This document shows positions 3,772 to 19,460 of a DNA stretch of 64,000 bases, in pieces (positions within the stretch are counted from its first letter, which is position 1; the number at the start of each line of letters is the position of its first letter). Location: the NCBI RefSeq assembly GCF_007725405.1, contig NZ_CP042163.1, positions 1,488,001-1,552,000 on the forward strand. Reading direction: 5' to 3'. This stretch comes from Shouchella miscanthi. GTDB lineage: Bacteria > Bacillota > Bacilli > Bacillales > Bacillaceae_D. The notes under the pieces were generated by a model, which was not told where the DNA came from, did no database searches, and was given only the letters and a program-made list of their open reading frames with translations. Made by a program: the position numbers and the translations under genes.

Positions 3772-5408
3772 TAAAGTGCCCTCATAATAAAATTTGGATA
3801 GTTTATTTTATCTTCCGATGAAAATATTTTTAACGCACAGTCAGTTTTGTTAGCTTTCATAAATTTATGTAACTCATCCTCGTTAGAATATTTTGTGTTA
3901 AAAATCGAATTGAGTTTTGTTAAACTATTTTCACGTAGCAAGGCTGGCTCCAAAGTATTGTAATTAAAAGGCTTTTTATTTTTTCCTAAAGTGAGGGAAC
4001 CAGTATGTACAGTCTTGTCGTAACAAATTTCAATATTTGACTTTTTATTTTTTCCTATATAGTTAGAATATTTTAGTTCTAATGCATCTAAATTCCCATC
4101 ATTATCTGTAATAACTTTTACAGGAATTTCTAAGTGCTCGGCAATTTCTAAAAATCTTAAAAAAGAGGTTCCAACTGAAATAATTTCTACTTCATCTTCA
4201 ATAGCTAATTTACCATTATTATTGTCTCGATACGCTTTTTGAACAACTAATTCATCAGAATCTCCCTCTACTAATATTGCTTTCTTACACAATATTAATC
4301 GAAGAGTATCGTAACCAGAAACTTTCTCAAAAAATACTTTAGATTCAAGTTGATCAAACTTCACAGTTTTTTGTTTGTTAAGTAAGATTAAATTATCTAG
4401 TCCTAGTTTGTTTGAGACAAAACTACTATGAGTGGAAAGAATAATCTGTTTGTCATGATAATTATCTTTAATACTATTCAGCAGTTGGTTAAGACGCGTA
4501 TGACTTATATGACATTCTGGCTCTTCAATTAAAATGATGGATGAAGCCTCGCTCCTTTTGTTAGATAGGGCTAAGTCCGTCTTTATAATTGATTGCTCAC
4601 CTTTTCCTATGAATTCGAAAGGTATTTTATCAAGCTGAGTTATTAAACTACCATCCCAAGTTGAGCGTGAACCTAAATCAACAGACAGTTCTATTTCTTT
4701 TTCGCTCAGTTTAGACATACTATTTATTTTTGAGTTTATCTCACTAATTGATTGATCTTTAGAAAACGTTTCTTTTACTTTTCTATAGGCTTGTGCAACT
4801 TTAGTTTTTTCGTCAGTTTCTAAAATGTTTTTGACGATTCTTGAAATGTAGATATCCGATCCGTTTTGAAACTTACTAAAGCCAACATCTATAAACGATG
4901 ATTTTATAGGAATGCTTCTAGAGGTTAATGCTTTTCTAGAAAAAGAGTACCAATCCACATCGTAATATTCAATTGGCAGACTTTCCAAGTTTCCTAGCTT
5001 GACTAAAGATTCATATTCCTCATGATATTTTTCGTCCAAAGCGATTTTAAAAGCAACTCCGCTCGTCTTTCCGATTTGGTCTTTTTGGGTGTATTTATCG
5101 CCTTCTAAAACTGGGATTAATTCATCAAAGTATAGTTCAATCAAAATGTAAGGAGGTTTAGAAATATTTCCATTATTCATATCAGTTAAATACTGATTTA
5201 CAACATCATAGTTAAATAAGTATTGAGATAAATTACCTCTAAGAGTTTTTCCTCTAAATATACCACTGAGAGCTATATGAATCGCCTCTAGAACAGTAGA
5301 TTTCCCAGCTTCATTATTTCCCACTAAAATATTAATACCTTCTTTAAAGTCTAGAGTGAAGGAACCATTAATACATTTGAAATTTTCAATATGAATACTT
5401 TTAATCAT
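3771..5408 (-). CDS. gajA: GajA-like OLD-family ATPase/TOPRIM nuclease (Gabija defence)
   Basis: A 545-residue protein. The N-terminal ABC/SMC-type ATPase has Walker A GNNEAGKST (about residues 30-38), signature-like GKGEQS (about 268), Walker B LIEEPE (about 292) and the switch histidine in STHSS (about 327). The C-terminal TOPRIM domain has the catalytic Glu in LVEGDSDE (about 378), then VGTSF and the DND acidic motif (about 425). This ATPase-TOPRIM layout next to a UvrD-like helicase defines Gabija, an anti-phage system in which GajA nicks DNA when nucleotide pools fall. The ATG at 5408 has AGGAGAG upstream and a TATAAT -10 at 5436-5431. Base composition is clearly AT-richer than the genes after the tRNA, consistent with acquisition. 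PARIS was considered, but its TOPRIM is on a separate protein. Confidence 0.88.
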   Translation of the reverse strand: MIKSIHIENFKCINGSFTLDFKEGINILVGNNEAGKSTVLEAIHIALSGIFRGKTLRGNLSQYLFNYDVVNQYLTDMNNGNISKPPYILIELYFDELIPVLEGDKYTQKDQIGKTSGVAFKIALDEKYHEEYESLVKLGNLESLPIEYYDVDWYSFSRKALTSRSIPIKSSFIDVGFSKFQNGSDIYISRIVKNILETDEKTKVAQAYRKVKETFSKDQSISEINSKINSMSKLSEKEIELSVDLGSRSTWDGSLITQLDKIPFEFIGKGEQSIIKTDLALSNKRSEASSIILIEEPECHISHTRLNQLLNSIKDNYHDKQIILSTHSSFVSNKLGLDNLILLNKQKTVKFDQLESKVFFEKVSGYDTLRLILCKKAILVEGDSDELVVQKAYRDNNNGKLAIEDEVEIISVGTSFLRFLEIAEHLEIPVKVITDNDGNLDALELKYSNYIGKNKKSNIEICYDKTVHTGSLTLGKNKKPFNYNTLEPALLRENSLTKLNSIFNTKYSNEDELHKFMKANKTDCALKIFSSEDKINYPNFIMRAL

Positions 5409-5792
5409 TAAATCTCTCCTAATAAATGTAATTATAGTACATTATCACTTATTTGAATGGAAAATACAAATTAGATTAGAACTACATCAAGTTTGGGAAT
5501 AAATTAAACCTTTGAACTATTAATGATTTCTCGTATTGATTTCATAAACTCAGTATAAACTTTATATAAGCTTCGAATGGAAATAATTTAAAAGTTGCGT
5601 AAGAATACATTGACAAGCATTATATTAAGTGTTAAATTTTCACTTACTAGGTGGCGCACTATTCACACGCGCAATAATTAATCTTTTTTTTAAACCTCAC
5701 GTTTTATACTAAATTTAACGAGATCTTGCGCGTATAAAAAGATCTTGTGTATACTCTATAATAGAAAAACAGCATCATATCAACGTTGTTAT
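5409..5792. other. Intergenic region between gajA and tRNA-Leu
   Basis: No gene is visible. It contains the gajA -10 (TATAAT, minus strand, 5436-5431). A plus-strand promoter-like TTGACA (about 5610) has TAAATT 17 bp later and no gene behind it. Two near-copies of AGATCTTG(C/T)G(C/T)GTATA lie at 5721-5736 and 5740-5753. The tRNA promoter is probably TTGCGC to TATACT within this last stretch. The accessory-patch boundary probably falls here. Confidence 0.5.
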
Positions 5793-5873
5793 GCCGGTGT
5801 GGCGGAATTGGCAGACGCGCACGACTCAAAATCGTGTTCCTTTGGAGTGTCGGTTCGACCCCGACCACCGGTA
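5793..5873 (+). tRNA. tRNA-Leu (anticodon CAA)
   Basis: A class II tRNA. The acceptor strands GCCGGTG (5793-5799) and CACCGGT (5866-5872) pair, followed by discriminator A. The anticodon stem CACGA/TCGTG encloses a loop with CAA. The T arm has GGTTCGACCCC. The body closely resembles the B. subtilis tRNA-Leu(CAA) I remember. CCA is not encoded here. It stands alone, downstream of a promoter-like sequence and upstream of a terminator. Confidence 0.95.
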
Positions 5874-6206
5874 TCGTGATTTTAGTAGAAAATGCTTGAT
5901 CTATCAGTCTTTCTAGTAATTACTAGAGGCTGATTTTTTTGTTTATGCTCACAATCACGCCTGAAAAAGCGTATGCGACGAATCGTGCGTTTGGAAATAA
6001 GCATACAAGGAATGGCACTTTTATGACGTACTTTTCAAAAGATAACCTAATTTTTCGTTCTTCCTACGACAAGCGGCATAAATTTTAAAATTACAAAAAA
6101 TTATTAACAATCTGCTTACAATGAGACAAAACTATGATAGACTGCATGTGATAGGGATAATTACGTAGTCAGAAAGAATGGTGACTTGTTTGAGGGGTTG
6201 TTTTGG
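5874..6206. other. Intergenic region after tRNA-Leu, with terminator
   Basis: A terminator hairpin lies at 5903-5934 (ATCAG with CTGAT outer pairs and TCTAGT/ACTAGA inner pairs) followed by T residues. The remaining 250 bp shows no open frame or repeat I can support. The last 100 bp should hold the promoter of the downstream membrane protein, but I see no convincing hexamers. Confidence 0.6.
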
Positions 6207-6755: not shown

Positions 6756-6764
6756 TTTAATAAG

Positions 6765-6797
6765 CCACTGCACATACAAATGTGCGGTGGTTTTTGA
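6765..6797 (+). terminator. Rho-independent terminator
   Basis: CCAC-T-GCACAT (6765-6775) pairs with ATGTGC-G-GTGG (6780-6790), followed by a T-tract. It separates the membrane protein from the tail cluster. Confidence 0.85.
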
Positions 6798-6825: not shown

Positions 6826-6854
6826 GTTGTTCAAAGGTTTTTTGTAAGAACAAT
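6826..6854. promoter_or_regulatory. Dyad operator candidate before the tail cluster
   Basis: GTTGTTC (6826-6832) and GAACAAT (6848-6854) form a near-perfect inverted repeat with 15 bp between arms, about one and a half helical turns. It lies just upstream of the first gene of the tail cluster, where a repressor or activator of induction would be expected. It is not a LexA-type box (which has GAAC outside and GTTC inside). Confidence 0.35.
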
Positions 6855-6874
6855 GATGTAATGGAGGGATCAAT

Positions 6875-7024
6875 ATGTTTTTTTTACTTGCTTTAATTTG
6901 TCAAATGACGTTATTCTTTTTTATCACATTAGGTGCATTGGTTAATAAAATTGAAAACAAAATAGCATTCTATATTTTATGGATTGTTACGGCTATACCG
7001 ACATTTTATCTAGTTTTTCAATAG
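6875..7024 (+). CDS. 49-residue two-helix membrane peptide at head of tail cluster
   Basis: The ATG at 6875 has GGAGGG about seven bases upstream. The peptide is almost entirely hydrophobic: one membrane segment (about residues 2-22), a short polar turn (NKIENK), then a second segment (about 30-48). It ends 18 bp before the Xpf-like gene and is probably co-transcribed with it. Two short helices with a polar turn is the shape of small holins, but position at the front of the cluster and a weakly charged C-terminus make that only a suggestion. No family recognised. Confidence 0.6.
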   Translation: MFFLLALICQMTLFFFITLGALVNKIENKIAFYILWIVTAIPTFYLVFQ

Positions 7025-7042
7025 GTAAAGGGAGAGACAAAC

Positions 7043-7417
7043 ATGAAAAAGGTAAGTCGAGAAGCGGTTACAATTCGATTAGAAGAACAATATGGAATGC
7101 TGTCATCTGCAAAACAAGTACAACATTTGTTAAGAGATATCCATTCTCTTCAATCAAGGGTACTACACGATGATTTTGCAGCTTGTGACATCTTTATTGA
7201 TCTACAAGATGCTATAGAACAAGCCGATTTAACAAAGCGTCAGCGTGACGCGCTATACTATGTTTATATGTGTGATTACACCCAAGTCGAGACGGCAGAG
7301 AAAATGGGGATCGCTCAACAAAACGTCAGAGAGTTACTAAAACGTTCGACAGAAAGAATAGCAGATATTTTTTACTACTGGACTCATCATGATTTAGGGT
7401 ATAGAGGAGGCATTTAG
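7043..7417 (+). CDS. Xpf/sigma-like phage late-gene activator
   Basis: A 124-residue protein with a C-terminal sigma region-4-like helix-turn-helix (about residues 62-105; LTKRQRDALYYVYMCDYTQ, then EKMGIAQQNVRELLKR). The layout matches PBSX Xpf and related phage late-gene activators, which direct RNA polymerase to late promoters. AAAGGGA precedes the ATG. The next gene starts one base after its stop, so the two are translated together. In context it should switch on the tail genes that begin at 7970. I cannot see the promoter it would recognise; the gap at 7809-7969 is where to look. Confidence 0.75.
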   Translation: MKKVSREAVTIRLEEQYGMLSSAKQVQHLLRDIHSLQSRVLHDDFAACDIFIDLQDAIEQADLTKRQRDALYYVYMCDYTQVETAEKMGIAQQNVRELLKRSTERIADIFYYWTHHDLGYRGGI

Positions 7418-7418
7418 A

Positions 7419-7808
7419 ATGACAGAACAATACCTTCTAGATCGTATGGAAGATTTAAAGATACACGCAAAGACAGGGGCGATGTCTAGACCGGGAAGGT
7501 TTAAAGAGATTGAGAAGTTGATTGAAGCTTATTACGACCAACATGAGAAAGTGCCTCCTAGTTATATGCTAGAGAAATTGGCTTCTCTTTGTTTACATGA
7601 AGAGCTTAGTAATCGTAATAGTCATAAAATGGCTCACGAGTGTTTTCCGATCCTAACTGATCATCAGCATGCTCGTAGAAATAAGCGGGAGAAAGTGTAT
7701 CATCAGATTGAATTTAGGCGCTCGCCTATTACAGGCAGCCGATCGGTCTCCTATGTAAGTGAGGACAATAGCCATACAAAAGGAAAACAAGTGTTTTATG
7801 TAAGCTAA
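7419..7808 (+). CDS. Unknown tail-cluster protein
   Basis: A 129-residue soluble protein with a helical N-terminal half (LLDRMEDLKIHAKTGAMSR, then RFKEIEKLIEAYYDQHEKV) and a basic, low-complexity C-terminal tail. The ATG follows the sigma-like gene stop by one base and has GGAGG upstream. No enzyme motif is visible. Position suggests a regulator or a remnant of the early region left after loss of head genes. I do not recognise it. Confidence 0.65.
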   Translation: MTEQYLLDRMEDLKIHAKTGAMSRPGRFKEIEKLIEAYYDQHEKVPPSYMLEKLASLCLHEELSNRNSHKMAHECFPILTDHQHARRNKREKVYHQIEFRRSPITGSRSVSYVSEDNSHTKGKQVFYVS

Positions 7809-7969
7809 AAAATTTTTTTGCTAAAATAAGAACGTATGATCGTGTTTTTTGGTTGGGTTCATGCCTTATAAGTGAGGAAGAGGAGAATTCCTTAGAGAAT
7901 AAGAGAGGAGGCATACAAGTGAATCGAAATAACGTACAAACACAAACATTACAAAAAGGGGAGATTTCA

Positions 7970-8440
7970 ATGTCAGAACAACGTTTACCATTTAACTTAC
8001 AATTTTTCGCGAAGGAATACAAAGGGGAAGAATTTATTTTTGCAGTGAAGGATAGTCAAGGATTATTACGTCCTTTTAACCAAACAGGAGGTTCTTTTAA
8101 TCGTTCGTTTGATGAAATTGAACTAGATACAAAAGATAAAACAGGCAGTGATTATGGGAAAGAATCAGTAGAAGTGTCGCTTGAAGGTGTTGTAACAGAA
8201 GGCGACCCGTTTATTGACTATATGGACGAAAAGCTTGATAACAAGGAATTTATCGAAATTTATCGTGTGAATAGCCGAAAGAAAACAGCAAAATCGGGTC
8301 TATATATGATTACATCTTGGGAGCAAAGTTACAGTAATGGAGAACACGCAACATATACATTAAGCGCTAAGCTAAACGGAAAGCTGAAAAACGAAGATAT
8401 GGTGGAAACAGAAGCACCGGCTGAAGACGATCAAGAATAG
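7970..8440 (+). CDS. Phage major tail (tube) protein
   Basis: A 156-residue protein from the ATG at 7970. It begins MSEQRLPFNLQFFAK, the NLQFFA-type start typical of abundant Gram-positive phage structural proteins. The body is beta-rich (EEFIFAVKDSQGLLRPFNQ, then ITSWEQSYSNGEHATYTLSA) as in TP901-1-type tail tube subunits. Tube subunits stack around the tape measure to form the tail shaft. A second in-frame start, GTG at 7919, has a stronger AGGAGG site and would add 17 residues; I prefer the ATG because of the hallmark N-terminus. It is the first structural gene of the cluster. No capsid, portal or connector gene precedes it. Confidence 0.85.
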   Translation: MSEQRLPFNLQFFAKEYKGEEFIFAVKDSQGLLRPFNQTGGSFNRSFDEIELDTKDKTGSDYGKESVEVSLEGVVTEGDPFIDYMDEKLDNKEFIEIYRVNSRKKTAKSGLYMITSWEQSYSNGEHATYTLSAKLNGKLKNEDMVETEAPAEDDQE

Positions 8441-8462
8441 TTTTTAGGTATTTACTAGCAGC

Positions 8463-8488
8463 TGAAGGTATCTTTTTAGATACCTTCA
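8463..8488 (+). terminator. Hairpin between tail tube and chaperone genes (partial terminator or RNA-processing site)
   Basis: A perfect 11-bp stem (8463-8473 with 8478-8488) has a TTTT loop and no following T-run. Such an element would stabilise the abundant tube mRNA or lower expression of downstream genes. Confidence 0.6.
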
Positions 8489-8515
8489 TCAATTCAAAAA
8501 AGGGGCGATGGCATC

Positions 8516-8881
8516 ATGTCAACAATTGTACTTCAAGGAAAAGAATATGAATTAAAGTTAACGATGGAAAGTGTGAAATATTTAAATCGTGTGATTCAGG
8601 GCGGACCAATGGGGATCATTGGAAAAGCGATGATGGGCGATTTAGAGGCATTTCCACAAATTGTACACGCAGGCTTATTTCATCATGGCAAGGATTTTTC
8701 ATTAAAAGATGTTGAAGCTGAAATTGAACAAGCGATGATGAGTGAGCAGCTTGATTCTGATGACATTTATAAAATTAGTAATAAGGTTGTGACGGAGAGT
8801 TTTTTCTTTCGCAATCAAGCGAAGAAACTAGTAGCGGACAATCCGGAAGCGGCGAAAGCATTGGAGATGTTAAGAGCTTAA
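8516..8881 (+). CDS. Tail assembly chaperone, short (G-type) form
   Basis: A 121-residue protein (begins MSTIVLQGKEYELKLTMESV; helical C-terminus) matching the TAC_12/gpG-like chaperones that coat the tape measure during tail assembly. AAGGGG lies upstream of the ATG. Near its 3' end the zero-frame codons AGT TTT TTC contain the slippery heptamer T TTT TTC (8800-8806). A -1 shift there gives a longer gpGT-like protein, annotated separately. The location between tube and tape measure is the universal position for this pair. Confidence 0.85.
   Translation: MSTIVLQGKEYELKLTMESVKYLNRVIQGGPMGIIGKAMMGDLEAFPQIVHAGLFHHGKDFSLKDVEAEIEQAMMSEQLDSDDIYKISNKVVTESFFFRNQAKKLVADNPEAAKALEMLRA
8800..8824 (+). 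promoter_or_regulatory. Programmed -1 frameshift site
   Basis: The heptamer T TTT TTC at 8800-8806 is in the correct register (X XXY YYZ) relative to the chaperone frame. The -1 frame is stop-free from 8785 to 9225, although it has a cluster of stops just upstream at 8761-8784. A small stem-loop (TTCGC 8808-8812 with GCGAA 8819-8823) follows directly. Confidence 0.75.
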
Positions 8882-9228
8882 CGCAATTAAATGGACTGAC
8901 TTATGTAGAACGCCAACTCGTTACCTGTTGGCGTTATTTGCGGTTAGAGCCCTCTGTTTTTTACGCTTTAACTCCAAGAGAGTTCGTCTTGTTAATGGAT
9001 GCTGAATTAGAATCGATACATGATGCAATGGAGCGAGAAGCACAAATTGCGTTAATGCATGAACAAGCTAGTCGCAGCAAGCGTCCTAAAGTAGCTGATT
9101 TATATAAACGTCCAACTTCAGCAACGAAAGACGATAATTCTATTCAGGCATCAGTCAAAAAAGCAGAAAAAGCTAAAAATTGGCTACAACAATTTACATT
9201 TAGAGAAAGGAGGGAAAGGGTTGAATGA
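8806..9228 (+). CDS. Frameshift extension giving the long (GT-type) tail assembly chaperone
   Basis: Read after the -1 shift, this adds 140 residues to the first 97 of the chaperone, for a predicted 237-residue fusion. The join is a Ser/Gly-rich linker (QSSEETSSGQSGSG). The T-like domain follows (LNGLTYVERQLVTCWRYLRL, then PREFVLLMDAELESIHDAM), then a charged tail. Taken alone the downstream frame only has a TTG at 8938 without a ribosome binding site. That TTG lies inside the continuous helix, so independent translation is unlikely. In lambda and many siphophages the G/GT ratio is set by such a shift and both products are needed for tails. Confidence 0.8.
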   Translation, partial: LSQSSEETSSGQSGSGESIGDVKSLTQLNGLTYVERQLVTCWRYLRLEPSVFYALTPREFVLLMDAELESIHDAMEREAQIALMHEQASRSKRPKVADLYKRPTSATKDDNSIQASVKKAEKAKNWLQQFTFRERRERVE

Positions 9229-11785
9229 GTTAAATAAAGTGATACAGTCTATGAATTCGGAAATTGTTGATTTTACTAATAAGATTACATCCATTGATGG
9301 ATCCATTACGTCTTTTACTGAATCCATTTCAGACATTGGAAAAGGATTTCAGCAAACCTCTGCAACGCTCCAAAAAAGTGGTGGAGAAGTGACAAGTAGT
9401 GTAGGAGAACTTTTTACAGCTGCTAATCAATTAGGTGGTGGCATTTGGGGTGATTCAAGCCCACTTGATGATATTGAACAGAAGGTATCAAGCGTTGCGT
9501 ACGCCCTAGACCAGGCTAGCAAATTATCCATTCCATTTTCGGACAAACTATCTACTTCTTTTTCAGAAGTGACGGCAGAAGCTTCTCGAATGGTGACAAG
9601 TGTACTGCAGTCGACTACAACAACCATTACTTTAATCAATCAACTGGTTGTCAGTTTCACTGCACTAAAAGCAGCAGCAATAAATGTAACAGCCACTCTA
9701 ATGAAAATAAAACCATTAGCTGCAGTATTTGGGTTCCTTATATCGCCAATCGGCATTGTTGTTGGGTTAATAGCAGCATTAGCAGTTGGTTTTTTGTATT
9801 TACAAAATGCAAATGGGTCATTAGGTTCAAGTTTACAAGCAGTATGGGAAAAAATTTCGTCCATCGGAAGCGAGGTTTTTTCAGTAGCCTCATCTATTTT
9901 TGATGGATTTATGACTGGAATTGTTGCAAGGTTGCCAGAACTAGTGCAGTCTGGAGCAGCGCTTTTGCAAAGACTCGTTGAGGGAGTAACAACGATGTTG
10001 CCTGCTTTGGCTGAAACAGCTATACAGGTAGTTAGCAATATCGTTGAAGGCATTACATCTGCCTTACCAATGTTGATGGAGGCAGGCGTACAAATCATTT
10101 CATTATTGATTAGTAATGCTTCAAGGAATCTACCACTTATGTTGGAATTAGGGATTGGAATTTTGACAAGTTTGCTAGACGGAATGGACTCAATGATTGG
10201 TACATTAGTTGAAGTGGTTATACAAGTTGTAACTCAACTAGTAGAAGCTATTACAACACAACTGCCATTATTAATTGAATTAGGTATGCAAGTGTTGATG
10301 AACTTAGTAGATGGCATTATGAGTTTTGTACCAACGCTACTAGAGACAGTAACCGGCATTATTACTATGCTCGTTGAAATGATCGTTGAACAGCTTCCTC
10401 TTATATTGGAATTAGGTATTCAATTACTAACCAACTTAATAGACGGTATTGTATCTTTGTTACCAATGATCATAGAAGTAGCTTTAGGCGTGATCTCTCT
10501 TCTTATTGAGACCATTACACAGCAACTTCCACTGCTGATTGAAATGGGCATAAACCTATTGATGAGCTTAGTAGATGGGATTATGACAATGATACCAACG
10601 ATCATTGAAACCGCCTTGAATCTTGTTCAGACTCTTATTACGACATTAGCTGAACAACTCCCATTACTTTTAACGATGGGGATTGAGATGTTAATGAGTC
10701 TCATTGATGGCGTGATCTCCATTTTGCCAATGCTCGTAGCAACTGCTGTAGAAATTATTACAATGGTTTTGACAACTCTTACCCAGCAGCTACCTCTTAT
10801 TATTCAGATGGGTATTCAGTTACTTGAGAGCTTAATCAAAGGGATTGTCACTATTCTGCCGATGATCATTGAAACGGCATTAGATGTTATTGCTTTAATT
10901 ATTGAGAGCTTAACACACCAGCTTCCACTGATAATTAATGCTGGAATCACGTTACTGGAAAGTCTTATCAAAGGGATTATGGATCATGTACCGGCTCTCT
11001 TACAATCTGTCGTTCAAATTATTATATCTATTATTAGTACACTCGCATCGAACTTCCCTTTAATTTTACAAAGCGGAATTTCTCTTATCGGATCTTTAAT
11101 TGGCGGATTAACAACAGCCATGCCGATGGTTCTTAGTGCAATTGGAACCATTCTTTCAAGTGTGTTTCAAGCAATCGTAAATGGGTTCCCTCGTATTATG
11201 CAGCTTGGAACTCAGCTCGTATCGCGACTTGCTGGTAGTATTTCAACAGCGGTTAGACGTGTTGTAACGGTGGGATCTGATTTAATTCGTGGCCTTTGGA
11301 GAGGGATGAATAACGTAAAAGATTGGATTATTGGAAAAATCAGTGGGTTTATGGACAGTGTGGTTGGAAGTCTAAAATCATTTTTTGGAATTAATTCGCC
11401 ATCAAAATTGTTCAGAGACGAGATTGGTCGTTTTCTTCCTCAAGGTTTAGCGGTTGGAATTGAAGGTGATCTAGGATCAGTGAATCGTGCGATGAATGCA
11501 ATGACGTCTCTTGTACCTTCTGAAATTGATCCTCCTCACATGGCACCGCTAGAACCCGTTCATCCAAACATGAGTCATTCTTATTCAAATCAGGTGCGTT
11601 TCTTTGAGAAAAAGAACAATGGTCGTTCGGTCGAGAACTTGTTAACAGAAGTAGTTGATACGTTACGAGAACAGAAGCAGCTGACGGTTCAAATGGATTC
11701 TACTGTTGTTGGTTCACTCGTTGAACCACATATTACAAATGCTCAAGAGAGAAAATCAATGCGGAAAAATAGGTTTTACACATAA
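9221..11785 (+). CDS. Tape measure protein with about nine 44-residue repeats
   Basis: An 854-residue protein starting at the TTG at 9221 with AGGAGGG six bases upstream; it overlaps the preceding stop by eight bases. The N-terminal 110 residues are polar and coiled-coil-like, followed by membrane-type helices (about 145-195). Residues about 235-690 consist of tandem units of 44 residues with the pattern QLPLLIE-G---LM-LVDGI----P-IIE. The C-terminal region has GINSPSKLFRDEIG, a motif common near the end of tape measures. The protein sets tail length; at about 1.5 angstrom per residue it predicts a tail near 130 nm. No lytic transglycosylase or peptidase domain is visible in it. Confidence 0.9.
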   Translation: MNELNKVIQSMNSEIVDFTNKITSIDGSITSFTESISDIGKGFQQTSATLQKSGGEVTSSVGELFTAANQLGGGIWGDSSPLDDIEQKVSSVAYALDQASKLSIPFSDKLSTSFSEVTAEASRMVTSVLQSTTTTITLINQLVVSFTALKAAAINVTATLMKIKPLAAVFGFLISPIGIVVGLIAALAVGFLYLQNANGSLGSSLQAVWEKISSIGSEVFSVASSIFDGFMTGIVARLPELVQSGAALLQRLVEGVTTMLPALAETAIQVVSNIVEGITSALPMLMEAGVQIISLLISNASRNLPLMLELGIGILTSLLDGMDSMIGTLVEVVIQVVTQLVEAITTQLPLLIELGMQVLMNLVDGIMSFVPTLLETVTGIITMLVEMIVEQLPLILELGIQLLTNLIDGIVSLLPMIIEVALGVISLLIETITQQLPLLIEMGINLLMSLVDGIMTMIPTIIETALNLVQTLITTLAEQLPLLLTMGIEMLMSLIDGVISILPMLVATAVEIITMVLTTLTQQLPLIIQMGIQLLESLIKGIVTILPMIIETALDVIALIIESLTHQLPLIINAGITLLESLIKGIMDHVPALLQSVVQIIISIISTLASNFPLILQSGISLIGSLIGGLTTAMPMVLSAIGTILSSVFQAIVNGFPRIMQLGTQLVSRLAGSISTAVRRVVTVGSDLIRGLWRGMNNVKDWIIGKISGFMDSVVGSLKSFFGINSPSKLFRDEIGRFLPQGLAVGIEGDLGSVNRAMNAMTSLVPSEIDPPHMAPLEPVHPNMSHSYSNQVRFFEKKNNGRSVENLLTEVVDTLREQKQLTVQMDSTVVGSLVEPHITNAQERKSMRKNRFYT

Positions 11786-11805
11786 GATGGAGGTGAATCG
11801 TTACT

Positions 11806-12510
11806 ATGCAATTTACGTTTAATGGGATCAGAAAAAAGTATATTACTGTATTAAGTCATCTGCAGCGACCCGTTCTACCGTCTATCTCTTATACAACGAC
11901 AGAGCGAGTAGAAGCAGGTGAGCGGGTAACTGGTATGAAAATGGACTCCATTATTCTAGACGTGCCTGTTGTCATCTATCATCGTGATAAAACCATGCAA
12001 GAGCTAAAGCTTGAATTGTCTTCATGGTTATATAGTGAGGATGAACAAAAACTCGTGTTCTCCGATACACCTAGCCAATTTTATTTGGCTAGGTTTTTAT
12101 CCGTAGAACTTGAAGAGTATGAGCACTTCTCGAAAGGAATTATCCAATTTTTGTGTCCAACGCCATACCAATATGCAGGAGAAATTGTTGTTCCAATAAC
12201 GGAAGAACAAAGAGATATTCATGTTGTAGGGCAAGTACCGGTGTTTTGGACATTACATGCTCGTATTGAAACAAGAACATTTCAGTTTGAAATTCGTAAC
12301 CAAAATGGTGAAAAATTAATTTTACAGCACCAATTTTTAGAAAATGATGTTATTGAAATTGATGCAGGTAAACGTGCCATTTATTTAAATCGTGACGCAC
12401 GTATGTCGTTACTGTCATTTGAAAGTAGATGGTTTCCGTTAAGACCAGGTGTAAATACCCTTTCTGTATCGGCCCCATCTACCATTACGTATCAAAATAT
12501 CTATTTTTAA
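11806..12510 (+). CDS. Distal tail protein (Dit, Sipho_tail family)
   Basis: A 234-residue protein with the Dit/Sipho_tail look. The N-terminus is MQFTFNGIRKKYITVL, then PVLPSISYTTTERVEAGERV, then a beta-rich belt domain (FSKGIIQFLCPTPYQY near residue 110-125) and a galectin-like C-terminal half. Dit hexamers join the tail tube to the tip protein. TGGAGGTGA precedes the ATG. Directly followed by the tail-tip gene, as in siphophages of Gram-positive hosts. Confidence 0.88.
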   Translation: MQFTFNGIRKKYITVLSHLQRPVLPSISYTTTERVEAGERVTGMKMDSIILDVPVVIYHRDKTMQELKLELSSWLYSEDEQKLVFSDTPSQFYLARFLSVELEEYEHFSKGIIQFLCPTPYQYAGEIVVPITEEQRDIHVVGQVPVFWTLHARIETRTFQFEIRNQNGEKLILQHQFLENDVIEIDAGKRAIYLNRDARMSLLSFESRWFPLRPGVNTLSVSAPSTITYQNIYF

Positions 12511-12528
12511 TAAAAGGAGGTGTGAAAC

Positions 12529-15500
12529 ATGAAGGACATGTATGTATTAGACCAAAACGATTCTTTGCTTACTACTATTGGCGAGGATAATGGCTTAATT
12601 TCCGCTCTTTTTCGAGAAGAATTAAACCAACTGCCTGATCAGCCATTACGTTTAATCGTGGATTCGGCGAGCAGTTCGGCACAGTTTGTTAAGGAAGAAA
12701 ACCAAGTGGTTTTTCGAGATAAAGAGGGAGAACTTAGGCTCTATGTGATTAAAGAAGTAGATGATCATTTTAGTGGGACTGAGCGCCAGACCTACGCCTT
12801 ATGTGAACCTGCTTTTATGGAGCTAAAGGAGCACTTCGTAAAAGAGCGCTCTTTTAAAAATGCCAATGCGTCGGTCGTGCTTAATTACGTGTTGAGTGGT
12901 ACACGCTGGCGTGGTCAAGTCGATATTGATTTAGGGGTTGGATCTATCCCACTTTCTTTCGAGTCATCGGTTGATGCCATCTGGTCTATTTTAAGGTTGT
13001 GGGGTGGAGAGTTTAAAGATATTGTCACTTTTTCTGGTAATCAAATTACATCGAGAACAATTAAAATTCTTTCTCGTCGTGGGCAGTATGTAGGGAAGCG
13101 TTTTGAAGTTGATCACGATATTCAAGAAATCCAGCGAACGGTTCTTTCTTATCCTGTAACGGCTCTTTATGGACAGGGTGCATCATCAGATGATCAGACA
13201 ACTGACTTTTCCGAAGTAACCTGGCAAGTAAAAGATGGAGATCCGGCAAATAAGCCAAAAGGACAAGCTTGGATTGGTGATGAACACGCATTAACTAGAT
13301 ACGGTCGTCCTTACGATGGAAAGCTGTTACATCGTGAAGGTATTTATACAAATAGCGATATTGAAGATCCTGAAACGCTTTTGCATGCGACATGGGAACA
13401 TTTACAACGTGTGAAGCAGCCGGAAGTTCATTATCAGCTCACCGTTCAATTACTTGAGCAACTGAGTGGCTATGAACATGAAAAAGTAAGTCTTGGCGAC
13501 ACGGCGCTAGCCTTTGATCGGATGTTTACTCGACCAATTGAAATCCAAGCACGTGTGATTGCGATTGAGTATGATTTAATGGATGTCAATCGATCTGCAA
13601 CAGTTGAAATGGGGCAATTTTTGTCTGCCCATAGCTATGACGATCGATTAGACCAAGTCATTCGTGAGATTAATGATAACCGAGGAAAGTGGAATCAAGG
13701 AAACAAACCGATCTCACCTGATCGCTTTCCCGATATATTACCAGATGTGCCTGCAAACGTAGAGGCAACAGGTGGATTTCAGACAGTGCAGATATTCTGG
13801 GCTTTTAACATCGAGGCTTTTTATGTGCAAGCCTATGAATTATTTGCTAGTGAAGTAAAAGGTTTTCTTCCTTCGCCGGAAACGCTTGTTTATCGAGGCT
13901 CGTTAAATGGGTTTAACTTTATCGGAGAAACAAATAAGACGTATTACTTTCGAGTCCGTGCAGTCAATTACCATGGGCGCGCTTCAAATTATTCAGCAGA
14001 AGTAGAGGCTTCAACTGCTCGAGTTGTAACCGATGATATTCTTTTTGGTCCCGAACTGGCTAGGAAATTAAGGGAGTTAAATAAAGAAGCTGATATCATT
14101 GGAAAGGATGGTATACAGTTTGAGCAAATTGCGAATGATGCATTAGAGCTTATTCAACAAAGAGCAAAGGACTATAGCGATCAGGAAATTGCAGACGTTT
14201 ATTCCATTCTTACTGAAGAGCTTGAGAAACGAATTGACAGTGCTCAATTTGATCAAGAAGTTCGTCGCATTCATCAAGCAATTAAAGATGGTGAAGATGC
14301 CCTAGAAGAAAAAGAAACACAGCTTAAAGAAGAAATCAATCAATTGGGTGAAGAACTAACCTCAATTGAGAAGCATGTTACAACGGAGTTTGAGAAAGTG
14401 GATGGACGCCTATCTGCCACTCTGTCAAGAGGTGAGGTCGACGAATTACTGACAGATAAAGTTGACTACACAACGTACAATCAAAAAATGACAACGATAA
14501 ATGCGTCTCTTGAGGGCATCGATTTCCTTGTAGGTGAAACGAGCGGACAAGTGGACCAATTGACTGGTGAAGTAACAGATTTACGAGATATTAGCTCAGA
14601 GTTAAGCTTAAGTGCTGAAGGGTTCTCTACATCGATTCGCCAGTTGCAAAGTGAAAAACGTCCCACCACAAACCTTGCTATCGGCACGTATAAGCCGTTC
14701 GTGCACTCGAATTGGACGAATGTCAACAACCAAGTTGTAAGGGTTTATGATGTATCGGATCGTGTTCTTGGAAAAGAAGTAACGATCTCTTGCAAAATAA
14801 AGATTAAGGATATAAAGGGCGGTAGTGAGGATTCCTCGAGGCTCACGCTACAGTGGTTTGAAAACAATCCAAACGCTTGGCATACAATCCAATCGATTAC
14901 GAATTTAAGCGAAAATAGAGAGATTGAGGTTACTCAAACTAGACAAGTAAACGCAAATACAACAACTATACGCCTTCAATTAAGTGCGGATTTTATTGCA
15001 TCAGGTACTGTTGAAATAGCAGAATTAATGGTTACAGAAGGTAAACGAGCGGCTGCGTGGTCGCCAGCATTTGAAGATCTAATAGATGCAGAATCATACT
15101 CTGAGAGGCAAACCTCACTTGACTCTACTTTAGAAGGTATTACTGGGAAAGTAGAGGAAACGACAAGTGATGTAGGAACACTCACACATACAGTGGGTCA
15201 GTTCAAACAAGACTTAGAAGGGTTTTCTACATCTATAGGTCAAGTTAGCAAAGATTTAGATGGTAAAGTAGACACTTCTATCTACGAACAACGCGAAACA
15301 GCTCTTAATGTTACATTAGACGAGATTACAGGAAAAGTGGAATCAACGAGTAGTGGTCTAGGAACATTGACAAATACAGTGAGTGAATTTAGACAGGATT
15401 TAAACGGGTTTTCGACGTCTGTGCGAGAATTGCAAGCACAAGAAATTGGAGGAGAAAACCTTTGGAATAACCCAAACGATTTTAGTTCACTACGTGCTTG

Positions 15501-18333
15501 GGAAGGCTCCTCGTTAACACTTAACAATCAAAATCAACAGATTAGTGCTTGGAATACTACCGAAGCGACAAGAGTTAGGTCCAGTGGAGGAAATACAGCT
15601 CTTAAAGCAGTGATGACAATTCTAAACGCTAACGAAAAAATACCAAACGTACCCTATACAATGTCTGTGTGGATTAGAAATAACGGAAACGCAGTAGTCA
15701 ATGTCAATTCAAATCAAGGTGGAGTCGATATAGAGCCTAGTGGAGAAAGAAGAGTTTCTTATACTTGGATTGCTAATAGCACTAGCCATATTCAATTTCA
15801 GCTCCGTTCATCCGCTAATCTTGATGTTCATATTTGGCGGGGACAATTAGAAAGAGGGAACAAACTAACAGGTTGGAAGCAACCGGCTTCTTTCTTTGTA
15901 AATACTGAACGTTATAATCAGCGGCAAACTTCTTTAGATGCAACGTTGGAAGGTATCAGTGGCCGGGTTTCGTCAACTGAAAGTGGCTTAGGTTCCGTTA
16001 CAACAAGAGTTGGGGAACTTGAGTTGACCGATACAAAATTTCAAACACGCGTTGGTACCATTGAAAAAGAGCAAGATAGTCAAGGGGGGCGTATTTCATC
16101 TGCTGAAACAGCCATTCAGCAAAACTCAACAGCTATCGGTCTTCGTGCAACGACGAGCACTGTTAACGGTATTAATGGTCGTTTGACAACTGCAGAAGGT
16201 ACCATTCGAGTCATGTCTGATCAAATCGATCTACGCGTTAAAAGAGATGGCATCATTTCCGCAATTAATTTATCGCCTGAAAGAGTTAAAATTGATACGC
16301 AGTTACTACAAGTTGGTGATTTTACTAACTTAGTAGATAATGGTGACTTTGAAGATGATGTCATTGGTTCTACACCAGCAGGTTGGATCGGCGGTGGTGC
16401 AACAGTCTATAACATGAGAAGTTGGAGTATTGATAATGGCTCAACACAAACGATGGGCGCTAAGACTGGCAACACTGGAAACATTGATATCCAACAAGAG
16501 CGCCTTATTAAAGTAGTGGCAGGAGATAGCCTTTACGTTGAGTTCGAATCTCGTTTTCACAGTAGTTCAGCTGGAAGAAGACATGCTGGGATTGGGTTTC
16601 GCAGGTATGATGCGGGAAAAAATCATTTAGGCTGGACTCAAGTCGCTCAGGCTACTGGCGGTACAACACAATGGCGAAAACTTTCAGGAACATATACGGT
16701 TCCAGCAGGAACTGCTTATATACGAATTTGGGTCACAAATAACCGAAATGAATCAACCGATAATATCATGTATGCTGACAACATTGTTGTCAGAAGAATG
16801 ACCAATACTCAGTTGCTTGTAAATGGTTCTATTACTGCCAATCATATGTCAGCAAATAGTATTACCGCTGCTAATGGTGCGCTTGCTAATGCGTCTATTA
16901 CAAGAGCGAACTTGCAAAATGCAATTATCCAAAATGCACACATTCAAGATGGAACAATTACTAGTGCTAAGATAGCTAGTTTAGCAGCGGATAAGATTAG
17001 CGCAGGTACGGTTACTTCAATAAATATTCGTAGTGCTAATATTCAGGGAAGTACTATTATTTCTCATCAAGGCAATAGAAGTACATCGATAGAAGGTGGA
17101 GAACTTCAGGCACGTGGTCGATATACAAGAACATGGTTTGGGAATACAAATTCATCTTGGGTAAACCTTCAATTAAAAGATGGTTATTTTATGGCTCATA
17201 ATGAGACAAGGCAGAGGAGACTGTATTATTCGGATTTTGGCATTTCAACTTATCTTGAAGGGTTTAACGATGAAGATTCGAATACCGAATACCACGGATC
17301 TGGTGTAATAGAATTCTTCTCTCATATGTACAACGGAGGAGAATGGGGCGCTGATAATGTCCGCGGTCTTACCGCATTTAGTAATAGGGGAAATATTGCA
17401 TTAAAAACAAATACAAGAGATGTCATACTTGATGCAGATCGTGATGTGAAAGTTATAGCGAATCGAGGTACGATTGTTCTGCGACCGAGAGACGGCAACC
17501 GTTCAGGGAATAATCATTTTGTTTTTAATGTGAAAAATAACTCTAGCGCTAGCGATACAGATGGTTGGATTGCCTATGGCTCTCCACAGACGAATACGCC
17601 ATATGCATCCGGACTACGCTTTAAGAAAACTCAATCAGGTAGACCGACTATATGGGCAACGAATGGTAACGGTGATTATAATTCAGGTGTCTTTGAAGCG
17701 GATTCTTTTATTGGTGATTTTGAAGCAAGGGAGTCAAGCTCCAATGCATATATGAAAGTAGATGGCTCTCTTCGAGTAACTGATCGCAGAGGTTATAACG
17801 GTGGTAATATAAGCTATCGTCCTATTCAAGTACAAGATGTAATTGCCAACTCTATTCGAGTAAATTTAGCTACAGGTGCAAATCGTGATTTGTATCTGGG
17901 TTGTTCAACAAATGAAGTTCGTGTTACAAATAATTCAATGTACAACAATAACAATATCGGGTATCGCCCAATTCGTGCCTCTAACTTTCACCAAGGTTCT
18001 TCTAGAACGTATAAAGATGATATTCAGAAGTTCAATGAAAGTGGACTTGATCATGTTAAACAACTAGATATAATGACCTTCTTGTTAAAGTCAGATCTAG
18101 AAGCAGAGGCTTTTCCTAAAAGAAGAGTTGGTATTATTGCGGAAGACAGTCCTAATGTTGTCACTAAGGATGGCATGGGTGTTGAGAATGATCGGATTGT
18201 TTACTACTCAGTACATGCCATCCAAGAACTCGATAAAAAAGTAGAAGACACCCTGGATCGAGTGTCTTTTTTAGAGATTGAAAATCAATTGTTAAAACGA
18301 GAAATACATGAATTAAAGGAGCGGTTGCTGTGA
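12529..18333 (+). CDS. Giant tail-tip/fibre protein with S74-type chaperone domain
   Basis: 1934 residues. Residues 1-370 resemble the Tal/prophage endopeptidase tail-hub domain. About 405-493 is fibronectin type III-like (FRVRAVNYHGRASNYSAEV). About 515-700 is coiled coil. Then three jelly-roll, carbohydrate-binding-like modules (about 712-850, 974-1120, 1266-1425) alternate with repeats ending GFSTS. Near 1434-1525 is the SITANHMSANSITAANGALA type of collar seen in phage fibres. About 1825 to the end (SSRTYKDDIQKF, then RVGIIAEDSP, then a coiled coil) is an intramolecular chaperone of the endosialidase/S74 type that folds and usually cleaves itself off. It thus combines hub and receptor-binding fibre in one chain. 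No catalytic lysin domain is evident. Confidence 0.88.
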   Translation: MKDMYVLDQNDSLLTTIGEDNGLISALFREELNQLPDQPLRLIVDSASSSAQFVKEENQVVFRDKEGELRLYVIKEVDDHFSGTERQTYALCEPAFMELKEHFVKERSFKNANASVVLNYVLSGTRWRGQVDIDLGVGSIPLSFESSVDAIWSILRLWGGEFKDIVTFSGNQITSRTIKILSRRGQYVGKRFEVDHDIQEIQRTVLSYPVTALYGQGASSDDQTTDFSEVTWQVKDGDPANKPKGQAWIGDEHALTRYGRPYDGKLLHREGIYTNSDIEDPETLLHATWEHLQRVKQPEVHYQLTVQLLEQLSGYEHEKVSLGDTALAFDRMFTRPIEIQARVIAIEYDLMDVNRSATVEMGQFLSAHSYDDRLDQVIREINDNRGKWNQGNKPISPDRFPDILPDVPANVEATGGFQTVQIFWAFNIEAFYVQAYELFASEVKGFLPSPETLVYRGSLNGFNFIGETNKTYYFRVRAVNYHGRASNYSAEVEASTARVVTDDILFGPELARKLRELNKEADIIGKDGIQFEQIANDALELIQQRAKDYSDQEIADVYSILTEELEKRIDSAQFDQEVRRIHQAIKDGEDALEEKETQLKEEINQLGEELTSIEKHVTTEFEKVDGRLSATLSRGEVDELLTDKVDYTTYNQKMTTINASLEGIDFLVGETSGQVDQLTGEVTDLRDISSELSLSAEGFSTSIRQLQSEKRPTTNLAIGTYKPFVHSNWTNVNNQVVRVYDVSDRVLGKEVTISCKIKIKDIKGGSEDSSRLTLQWFENNPNAWHTIQSITNLSENREIEVTQTRQVNANTTTIRLQLSADFIASGTVEIAELMVTEGKRAAAWSPAFEDLIDAESYSERQTSLDSTLEGITGKVEETTSDVGTLTHTVGQFKQDLEGFSTSIGQVSKDLDGKVDTSIYEQRETALNVTLDEITGKVESTSSGLGTLTNTVSEFRQDLNGFSTSVRELQAQEIGGENLWNNPNDFSSLRAWEGSSLTLNNQNQQISAWNTTEATRVRSSGGNTALKAVMTILNANEKIPNVPYTMSVWIRNNGNAVVNVNSNQGGVDIEPSGERRVSYTWIANSTSHIQFQLRSSANLDVHIWRGQLERGNKLTGWKQPASFFVNTERYNQRQTSLDATLEGISGRVSSTESGLGSVTTRVGELELTDTKFQTRVGTIEKEQDSQGGRISSAETAIQQNSTAIGLRATTSTVNGINGRLTTAEGTIRVMSDQIDLRVKRDGIISAINLSPERVKIDTQLLQVGDFTNLVDNGDFEDDVIGSTPAGWIGGGATVYNMRSWSIDNGSTQTMGAKTGNTGNIDIQQERLIKVVAGDSLYVEFESRFHSSSAGRRHAGIGFRRYDAGKNHLGWTQVAQATGGTTQWRKLSGTYTVPAGTAYIRIWVTNNRNESTDNIMYADNIVVRRMTNTQLLVNGSITANHMSANSITAANGALANASITRANLQNAIIQNAHIQDGTITSAKIASLAADKISAGTVTSINIRSANIQGSTIISHQGNRSTSIEGGELQARGRYTRTWFGNTNSSWVNLQLKDGYFMAHNETRQRRLYYSDFGISTYLEGFNDEDSNTEYHGSGVIEFFSHMYNGGEWGADNVRGLTAFSNRGNIALKTNTRDVILDADRDVKVIANRGTIVLRPRDGNRSGNNHFVFNVKNNSSASDTDGWIAYGSPQTNTPYASGLRFKKTQSGRPTIWATNGNGDYNSGVFEADSFIGDFEARESSSNAYMKVDGSLRVTDRRGYNGGNISYRPIQVQDVIANSIRVNLATGANRDLYLGCSTNEVRVTNNSMYNNNNIGYRPIRASNFHQGSSRTYKDDIQKFNESGLDHVKQLDIMTFLLKSDLEAEAFPKRRVGIIAEDSPNVVTKDGMGVENDRIVYYSVHAIQELDKKVEDTLDRVSFLEIENQLLKREIHELKERLL

Positions 18334-18776
18334 TTAAGTTTATGAAGAAAGAATTGGATAAAGTAGCGAAGTTTCTACTAGATATAGAGCTTACGGGTGT
18401 TGAGAATATTCATAGGATGCGTGTTGTGAATCAGTTGAAAAAACAACATGAAGAAATGGTTTCTGAAGAAATTGAGTTGTTAAAAGCACATGCAGAATTA
18501 GATACAAATGGTGAGTTAGTTCGAACGGAAGCTGGTGGCTTTCAATTAAAAGACCAGGACGCGGCAATTGAATTTCGAACGCAGCAAGAAAAGCTATTAA
18601 ATGAACAATTTGTTATGGCTGATTCTAATCTAAACCAAGCATTGGAAACATTGGAACACGTTGTTATGAATCTTGATAAAAAGCTATCTAATGAAGAGGC
18701 GGAAACACACTTTATGATTGCTGAGGCTTTTGAGGAAGCAAAACTGAATCAAAACAAACAAGGAGATGTTGAATAA
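18330..18776 (+). CDS. Small helical phage protein (DUF1617-like)
   Basis: A 148-residue, almost wholly alpha-helical acidic protein. The GTG start at 18330 overlaps the fibre-gene stop and has AAAGGAG upstream. The order (after the fibre, before the XhlA-like protein), the length and the N-terminus (KKELDKVAKFLLDIELTG) recall DUF1617 proteins of Gram-positive phages; this is from memory. Possibly a fibre-assembly helper. Its stop overlaps the next start (TAATG). Confidence 0.6.
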   Translation: MIKFMKKELDKVAKFLLDIELTGVENIHRMRVVNQLKKQHEEMVSEEIELLKAHAELDTNGELVRTEAGGFQLKDQDAAIEFRTQQEKLLNEQFVMADSNLNQALETLEHVVMNLDKKLSNEEAETHFMIAEAFEEAKLNQNKQGDVE

Positions 18777-19027
18777 TGGGACAGGTAGAAAAATTAGATG
18801 TGCGTGTATCTGGTGTTGATTTCACCTATAATTTTGAGGAAGAGGTTGACGAAGTTCGTCTTCGCTTTAATGTAACGGATCCAACAGGTGATATTAACGC
18901 AAATGGTCGGGTAGTGGTATCAATGGATGAATATGTTCAAGATCCACGTTTGCTTGCTTTAGCCGACTTAGCACGAGTAAAACTAATTAAGCGTTTAGAA
19001 CCGAAAGAAGAGTCGCAGACAGATTAA
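18776..19027 (+). CDS. Small unknown tail-cluster protein
   Basis: An 83-residue beta-rich acidic protein (VSGVDFTYNFEEEVDEVRLR, then GRVVVSMDEYV) with a helical, charged C-terminus. Translationally coupled to the previous gene. It has no signal or membrane segment. No family recognised; an accessory fibre or chaperone protein is plausible by position. Confidence 0.6.
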   Translation: MGQVEKLDVRVSGVDFTYNFEEEVDEVRLRFNVTDPTGDINANGRVVVSMDEYVQDPRLLALADLARVKLIKRLEPKEESQTD

Positions 19028-19071
19028 GTCAGGGGCTTTTTTATACTGCTAAGAAGGAGGGGTTGGCGAAG

Positions 19072-19407
19072 ATGACTGAGCCATCTGCATATGATCTCCT
19101 CCGTAAATTAACCGAAGTTGAGATTGCACTTGCGAAAGTAACGCAACAATTAGAAAGTCAGACGAGTGTGTTAGAAGAAGTGCGTAAGGAACTTTCAATG
19201 ACGAGAGAGAAAGCCGATGCTGCTGAAGAAAAAGCAGAAATTGCATATAGAAAAGCGAAGCAGGCACTAGGGGAGATCAAACAGACTCGAGAAGAAACCT
19301 TACGAACGCAAAACGAGCGGAAAGTAGATAGACGTTGGTTTATAGGAACGGTGTTGACGGTAGTAAGCTTAATTATGCCAATTATCATCACGTTCTATTT
19401 TCAATAA
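19072..19407 (+). CDS. XhlA-like hemolysin/holin-associated membrane protein
   Basis: A 111-residue protein: a long N-terminal coiled coil (about 12-85) and a single C-terminal membrane segment (WFIGTVLTVVSLIMPIIITF), the architecture of XhlA of PBSX, which works with holin XhlB in lysis. I chose the ATG at 19072 since GGAGG ends 11 bases upstream; a TTG at 19063 is too close. In PBSX, XhlA is followed by xhlB and the endolysin gene; here a terminator follows at once. The lysis cassette is therefore incomplete, or its other parts lie elsewhere. Confidence 0.75.
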   Translation: MTEPSAYDLLRKLTEVEIALAKVTQQLESQTSVLEEVRKELSMTREKADAAEEKAEIAYRKAKQALGEIKQTREETLRTQNERKVDRRWFIGTVLTVVSLIMPIIITFYFQ

Positions 19408-19419
19408 AAAAGCAATTTT

Positions 19420-19460
19420 AGACAGACAGGGCTTAGAGCCTTGTCTGTTTCTTTTTTTTG
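19420..19460 (+). terminator. Terminator ending the tail cluster
   Basis: A 14-nt stem (19420-19433 with 19437-19450, one mismatch) and a long T-tract. It marks the 3' end of the phage-tail transcript. Confidence 0.88.

Follow-up and report, generated by a model that had tools for sequence, protein, structure and literature searches.

Known F-type tailocins are very few: as excerpted, the report on rhizoviticin names only F-pyocin and monocin besides rhizoviticin itself (PMC10811719). The available parts of two reports describe the monocin of Listeria as related to phage A118, with a cI-like repressor, the MpaR antirepressor and the holin-lysin pair ftbQR, and as SOS induced (PMC7076858, PMC6872733). 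Rhizoviticin, by the same excerpted account, retains an early phage region, a LexA-family repressor, lysis genes and a DUF3168 gene required for activity (PMC10811719). Here we describe a cluster of phage tail genes in Shouchella miscanthi, at positions 6,875-19,407 of a 64-kb stretch (the window) that covers 1,488,001-1,552,000 of a 4.25-Mb, one-contig host genome (G000:C1). The host is a Shouchella near S. oshimensis, and its Dit protein is 98% identical to the copy in G003, a Shouchella genome that we take as S. oshimensis DSM 18940 (NZ_KV917380.1).

We consider it likely that the cluster is a domesticated tail-only locus making a flexible, headless siphovirus tail like an F-type tailocin, probably retained for a particle that kills bacteria. 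What the analysis shows is the set of genes, the absence of homologues of head and terminator proteins, conservation, selection and the exchange of modules; from these we infer a particle, its regulation, its release and killing. All genes run in one direction between two terminator hairpins, their frames are open, and they form a complete non-contractile tail set, with no sheath gene recognised among the cluster proteins in profile searches. What the locus has in common with F-type tailocins is this complete non-contractile tail, the lack of head, packaging or replication genes for the particle, selection, and a variable receptor-binding part. An earlier note on this DNA had named a series of tail genes between two terminators, and all of them are present with open reading frames; its inventory was incomplete, as an additional open reading frame (ORF) of 49 amino acids (aa) at 6875-7024 opens the cluster and the gene at 7419-7808 is a conserved partner of Sig. 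The features are as follows.

5792-5875: tRNA-Leu gene, 5' of the cluster
6762-6793, plus strand: terminator-like hairpin of 14 pairs with a T run, 5' of the cluster
6875-7024, plus strand: 49-aa ORF with two hydrophobic stretches, first in the cluster (sequence, hydropathy)
7043-7417, plus strand: Sig, sigma-70 region-4 activator-like protein (PF04545, phrog_3512)
7419-7808, plus strand: Orf2, conserved partner of Sig, helical in its N-terminal half (phrog_13088)
7822-7842, plus strand: TAAAAT and an imperfect LexA-like box, conserved, 5' of the tube gene; a weak lead
7967-8440, plus strand: major tail (tube) protein, 157 aa (PF06199; NCBIfam TIGR02126)
8516-8881, plus strand: tail assembly chaperone, first frame (PF12363)
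8785-9228, plus strand: -1 frame extension of the chaperone, frame open from 8785, ORF listed from 8938 (PF09550)
8800-8806, plus strand: slippery heptamer T TTT TTC for a -1 frameshift, in the correct phase
9221-11785, plus strand: tape measure protein, 854 aa, with about ten 44-aa repeats (phrog_5493, E 4e-92)
11806-12510, plus strand: Dit (PF22768, PF05709; PDB 2x8k, named 19.1, E 1e-14)
12529-18333, plus strand: Tal/tip-fibre protein, 1934 aa, with a Prophage_tail N-terminal part, a domain like a carbohydrate-binding module (CBM) and an S74 chaperone end (PF06605, PF13884)
18330-18776, plus strand: 148-aa protein that accompanies this tip module (phrog_1401)
18776-19027, plus strand: 83-aa protein that accompanies this tip module (phrog_30730)
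19063-19407, plus strand: 114-aa protein ("XhlA-like") with one C-terminal hydrophobic segment (hydropathy)
19420-19450, plus strand: terminator-like hairpin, 3' of the cluster

The tube protein reaches 100.6 bits against the TIGR02126 profile "phage major tail protein, TP901-1 family" (cut-off 37). A -1 frameshift linking the two chaperone frames is supported by the in-phase T TTT TTC at 8800, and the same heptamer lies near the end of the chaperone gene in the contigs L169, L171 and L172 and in phage phi18-2. In the AlphaFold model of Orf2, the predicted local distance difference test score (pLDDT) is about 90 at residues 1-60 and poor thereafter, with a predicted template modelling score (pTM) of 0.47. 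The Tal match to PF02018 falls slightly below the cut-off of that profile, and the gene for the 148-aa protein adjoins Tal in phage BCJA1c, L171 and others too. For the 114-aa protein, the earlier label "XhlA-like" is backed by weak matches to PHROGs of unknown function (E 1e-4 to 8e-3), with none to a Pfam XhlA profile. The 49-aa ORF, which has no Pfam or PHROG match and differs from its S. oshimensis counterpart by four synonymous changes and one non-synonymous change, is a possible small holin-like protein.

Judged by sequence similarity, the front half of the cluster (Sig to tape measure) is related to the Bacillus phages phi18-2 (OR208547) and 268TH002 (ON210835), and the tip (Dit, Tal and two small genes) to BCJA1c and Mimir87. 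At E<=1e-3 the tube protein matches just three phage records, all of them Bacillus phages and none a Listeria phage. In phi18-2 the counterparts are GP85 for Sig (48% identity over 98 aa), GP86 for Orf2 (37% over 71 aa), GP14 for the tube protein (52%), GP15 for the chaperone (50%), GP16 for its -1 part (36%) and GP17 for the tape measure (33%), the last four over the aligned parts. Homology to phi18-2, at 33-52% identity, therefore extends from Sig to the tape measure; the tips differ. Both phages, in contrast to the cluster, are complete: Sig-Orf2 lies far from the tube gene, and the tube is preceded by head and neck genes, namely terminase, portal, capsid, stopper and tail terminator in the 268TH002 annotation. 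For Dit the nearest phage records are BCJA1c (32%) and Mimir87 (29%), with stretches of Tal matching at 41% and 47%; other genomes of the family reach up to 37% for Dit and up to 53% for Tal.

The head and neck proteins of three reference phages gave no match in the window (phmmer, E<=1e-3), a test that detects close relatives only: two reference tube proteins missed the window tube, and one prophage gave only one protein. Among these references 268TH002 is close, its tube protein being 51% identical to that of the window. The same queries had no match at the corresponding site of the Shouchella genome G100, in three stretches of a second tail cluster or in L169. Elsewhere in the host genome there was no match to TerL PF03354 or portal PF04860, and a 268TH002-type capsid occurs in one of 13 genomes of the genus (G005), with none in the host or the other 11.

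The same stripped layout recurs elsewhere. Related loci were drawn from viral-contig scans (30; best 80 of 94) and one genome-contig scan (7), with contigs recurring between scans, and six profiles (terminator, stopper, protease, capsid, portal and terminase) were scored before the tube gene. In 16 of 113 rows, Sig and Orf2 stand before the tube gene with none of the six head and neck profiles; the other 97 have at least one. L189, L197 and L198 have a distant protease match only, and their gene maps, read by eye, show a terminase-like 431-aa gene and head- or neck-sized genes, which makes them phages. The 16 tail-only rows reduce to 12 distinct records, including the window and S. oshimensis. 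Shouchella-type tail-only contigs from IMG/VR are L098-L101, of which L099 may be the window strain and L101 may be S. oshimensis. The other records are the genome G366, from another family, and contigs whose tube proteins are 100% (L170), 97% (L171), 93% (L172), 54% (L206) and 52% (L207) identical to that of G366; judging by this, L170 is perhaps the same strain as G366. The tail-only rows yielded no homologue of the tail terminator; no 268TH002-type terminase was found in G366 and seven contigs (a set with no positive control), and no head match in the G366 flanks or the remainder of the L171 contig. Upstream sequence is only 4.5 kb for L206 and 2.6 kb for L207, and head genes farther away are possible there. 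Orf2 accompanies Sig in 16 of 55 sequence sets after identical phage rows were dropped, most phage sets ending short of that region. An order-wide search with Sig (397 genomes) returned, as its other strong matches, G366, which is tail-only, and G005, G391 and G176, where Sig lies near phage capsid/terminase, integrase or terminase homologues. A class-wide search with a tube alignment (398 genomes, E<=1e-10) matched the window genome alone, suggesting that the family is rare or patchy.

Within these loci, the tip varies while the body is conserved. In 60-residue blocks, Tal is 87-100% identical to that of G003 except at residues ~960-1220, which are lost or replaced in G003. The contig L100, otherwise 98% G003-like in DNA, has the window version of Tal residues 960-1140, and from about residue 1240 to the end its Tal is unrelated or very diverged, the C-terminal third having been replaced. 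L171 joins a G366-type body to a window-type Dit (37%), Tal (52%) and 148-aa gene, followed by a holin and an amidase. The L171 tip and the L100 Tal end indicate that tips have been swapped on a conserved body, as in tailocins. The tape measure also varies, the G003 protein of 986 aa being longer than the 854 aa of the window by 132 aa, or three 44-aa units. By eye, L171/L257 have a tyrosine-recombinase-like gene and a tRNA-like stretch beyond the lysis genes, and the L171 tail-only locus may therefore be, or have been, mobile.

A broader proposal, which we offer tentatively and with more doubt than confidence, is that these loci are a recurrent Bacillales tail-only family in which Sig-Orf2 became joined to the tube gene, head and terminator were lost, tips were exchanged and at least two origins occurred. 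The Shouchella members would have dropped their lysis genes and depend for release on lysis from another source, be it prophages, the second, genus-wide tail cluster or the mother cell lysing in sporulation, and their frame would swap its payload. More than one origin is likely, although not proven, from the trees. A single origin for all tail-only loci was tried as an explanation and rejected on the chaperone tree, which unites the Shouchella and G366 tail-only groups (98/93), places L206/L207 apart among phages and forces at least three state changes, with bootstrap support partly unsettled. The orf2 tree also joins the Shouchella and G366 groups (80/83) and the sig and tube trees do not; their forks are open, with long branches flagged.

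Selection on the tail genes, which the earlier note expected to appear as a ratio of non-synonymous to synonymous divergence (dN/dS) below 1, is borne out. Between the window and S. oshimensis, where the cluster occupies the same chromosomal site, dN/dS ranges from 0.027 to 0.211 across eleven genes, sig through the gene for the 114-aa protein, and the 49-aa ORF has 0.059 (Nei-Gojobori; alignable part for Tal and tape measure), values that rest on few changes (for the tube, 9 synonymous and 2 non-synonymous). In the G366 group, three pairs of tube genes give synonymous divergence (dS) of 0.87, 0.93 and 0.43 with dN/dS of 0.031, 0.012 and 0.034. The same layout in distant lineages, at tube dS of 0.4-0.9 and dN/dS of 0.01-0.03, argues that tail-only loci are old and selected.

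Several observations weigh against a maintained tailocin of this kind. Intact frames relative to S. oshimensis are by themselves weak evidence, because the separation is recent (dS ~0.1 for most tail genes). The tube gene occurs in only two of 13 Shouchella genomes, and G100, of the same species as the window, is without the genes from the tube to the 83-aa protein; the fixed site that the earlier note suggested checking in relatives is seen in S. oshimensis. Profile searches recognised neither holin nor endolysin in the Shouchella cluster, so that it shows no lysis cassette of its own. Nor were homologues of the tail terminator or stopper found in the cluster, and related phages have the terminator beside the tube gene. 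No clear SOS box is present: the LexA-like box has two mismatches to the consensus, such matches number 10 in the window against 5.8 expected (11 of 100 shuffles were as high), and the exact GAACN4GTTC has no match in the window. A LexA box under the loose consensus, not clearly above chance, was accordingly rejected, and what remains is a conserved imperfect box, the stretch at 7822-7842 being identical in six aligned loci, G100 included. As for repeated emergence, the changes in the chaperone tree may have come about by a single gain plus two losses, or by exchange of genes, and a single origin is still compatible with the tube, sig and orf2 trees. The candidate F-type tailocin of the earlier note is largely borne out: the locus is tail-only, intact, selected and variable in its tip. 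It differs from monocin and from related tail-only loci in that no lysis pair could be recognised.

One alternative is that the cluster is a decaying prophage remnant, which has already lost its genes for head, lysis and lysogeny and whose tail genes have simply not broken down yet. The missing holin and endolysin, the tail-less G100 and the narrow distribution of the tube gene would all suit it. We nevertheless regard it as unlikely, since the frames are open in both the window and G003 with low dN/dS, and since distant lineages carry the same stripped layout with a strongly conserved tube. In L098 and L100 the frames are broken by one-base differences in run length, which also spread across the flanks, one of them within the tRNA-Leu gene, and so look like sequencing errors; decay in these IMG/VR relatives was set aside on that ground, although some of it may be real.

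G100 itself suggests another alternative, that of a stable chassis of Sig, Orf2 and the 49-aa and 114-aa proteins on which payloads are exchanged, a tail here and a 179-aa protein there. At its site, the upstream gene, 49-aa ORF, Sig, Orf2 and conserved box are followed by 1.2 kb that holds a 179-aa ORF; the 114-aa gene comes next, with downstream genes as in the window. The replacement begins immediately 3' of the ribosome-binding site of the tube gene and ends immediately 5' of the one that serves the 114-aa gene. Between G100 and the window, dS is 0-0.01 for the upstream, 114-aa and downstream genes, and 0.07 for the 49-aa ORF, 0.07 for sig and 0.19 for orf2; these higher values indicate that the front of the cassette was exchanged by recombination. 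The earlier note had held that absence of tail genes in close relatives would tell against it, and this is found in part, G100 keeping the frame and not the tail. However, the exchange is seen in one genome only, other lineages carry tails, and the 179-aa orphan (L073:4450-4989), with no relatives in Pfam, PHROGs, NCBIfam, PADLOC, or phage or plasmid records, may be a chance passenger, so we judge the chassis improbable. Other genomes of the genus differ at the site: G005 and G009 have unrelated genes, and in G001 the flanking genes are only ~0.12 kb apart, possibly an empty site.

The host cell does have genes for heads, each set accompanied by its own tail genes. Two prophage regions, at 1.275-1.33 and 3.29-3.33 Mb, account for the two weak matches to PF04466 in the host genome (24.9 bits); both regions have terminase, capsid, Dit and amidase, with holin in the first and portal likewise in the first, the one where it was looked for (ten genes scanned for terminase, capsid, portal and Dit), and both carry long tape-measure-sized genes. 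That the cluster lends its tail to a head made elsewhere in the cell, by a mobile element or prophage, is very improbable in our view: the terminase and capsid genes of the two prophages could furnish heads, but both have their own Dit and tape-measure-sized genes, and the neck proteins (terminator, stopper) needed for head joining have no homologue in the cluster. The earlier claim that no head or packaging genes serve the same particle is consistent with this, none having been recognised in the cluster and the prophages having their own heads and Dit. The two prophages (1,275,000-1,330,000 and 3,290,000-3,330,000) are closely similar and in opposite orientation, with many proteins apparently identical over the compared stretch; they differ in capsid and tape-measure genes.

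On the preferred reading, a domesticated tail-only locus, Sig and Orf2, probably a late-gene switch in the parent phages, would now drive the tail operon alone. Tube subunits would be laid along the tape measure from the Dit/Tal tip, with tail length following the 44-aa repeats. Tails measure ~0.15 nm per tape-measure residue, and 854 aa would give roughly 130 nm. Tal may bind a cell-wall receptor of close relatives, after which the tube would open the envelope and kill without DNA. As no holin or endolysin is recognisable in the cluster, we propose that the particle is released by lysis from outside it, through co-resident prophages or cell death; the 49-aa and 114-aa membrane proteins could aid release together with a prophage amidase. 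Lysis genes do accompany the tail elsewhere: G366 and L171 have a holin and an amidase, L206 a BhlA-type holin and L207 an SPP1-type holin.

The host has a second tail-only cluster at ~4,077,000-4,087,125 (L031, L032; also L096, L044-L047), with a 142-aa presumed tube, a chaperone-like gene, a tape measure (600 aa), Dit, Tal (497 aa) and further tip genes, one of which has a GH18 domain in the G003 copy. The tube label comes from position and a weak match of the G010 copy (phrog_158, E 0.03). This 142-aa protein occurs in nine of 13 Shouchella genomes at 89-100% identity. The second cluster has two alternative tip modules, the other being found in G004, G008, G010 and G011, with a holin and SPOR-amidase in G010 (the only one scanned), and divergent SHOCT-domain genes adjoin it. 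Around the cluster in the window, a Gabija defence pair lies at 2659-5408 on the minus strand, ~1.4 kb 5' of it (PADLOC: GajB, E 1e-128; GajA, E 5e-197). Upstream of 5785 the window has no alignment with the G003 stretch compared, indicating that this side of the tRNA-Leu gene is variable. Four families of short imperfect direct-repeat pairs were found, none convincingly bracketing the cluster as attachment sites.

The literature matches listed contain no F-type tailocin in Bacillaceae or Shouchella; subscription papers are poorly covered by them and absence is not proven. Going by their shared gene order, the related tail-only loci look like a new F-type-tailocin-like family with a common plan. 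The missing terminator raises the question of how the tube stops growing in a tail that has no head, and the missing lysis genes that of how a Gram-positive tailocin leaves the cell with no lysin of its own. By description, F-type pyocins of Pseudomonas aeruginosa resemble the cluster in that their tails are flexible and lack heads, their site is fixed and their fibres vary; they differ in their lambda-like gene set, shared pyocin regulators and lysis genes. Monocin, compared through the available descriptions and not through the ftb sequence, is likewise an F-type set of tail genes alone, derived from a siphovirus and lodged in the chromosome of a Gram-positive bacterium, whereas the cluster described here has a sigma-like gene and no recognised repressor or lysis pair (PMC7076858, PMC6872733). 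As far as the excerpted account goes, rhizoviticin of Allorhizobium vitis is similar in being an F-type tailocin of chimeric make-up that lacks head genes and requires a sigma-factor gene to be active, but its early region, LexA-family repressor, lysis genes and DUF3168 gene were not recognised in the window cluster (PMC10811719). The carotovoricin of Pectobacterium, another tailocin from an unrelated genus and compared in its fibre-exchange pattern only, offers in the available part of its report a locus that stays at one site while tail-fibre loci are exchanged (PMC13195805). Beside these systems, the replicated tail-only loci and their full-phage relatives show how a tailocin can emerge: head, neck and terminator are gone, the late sigma switch is kept, and the parts that set specificity move.

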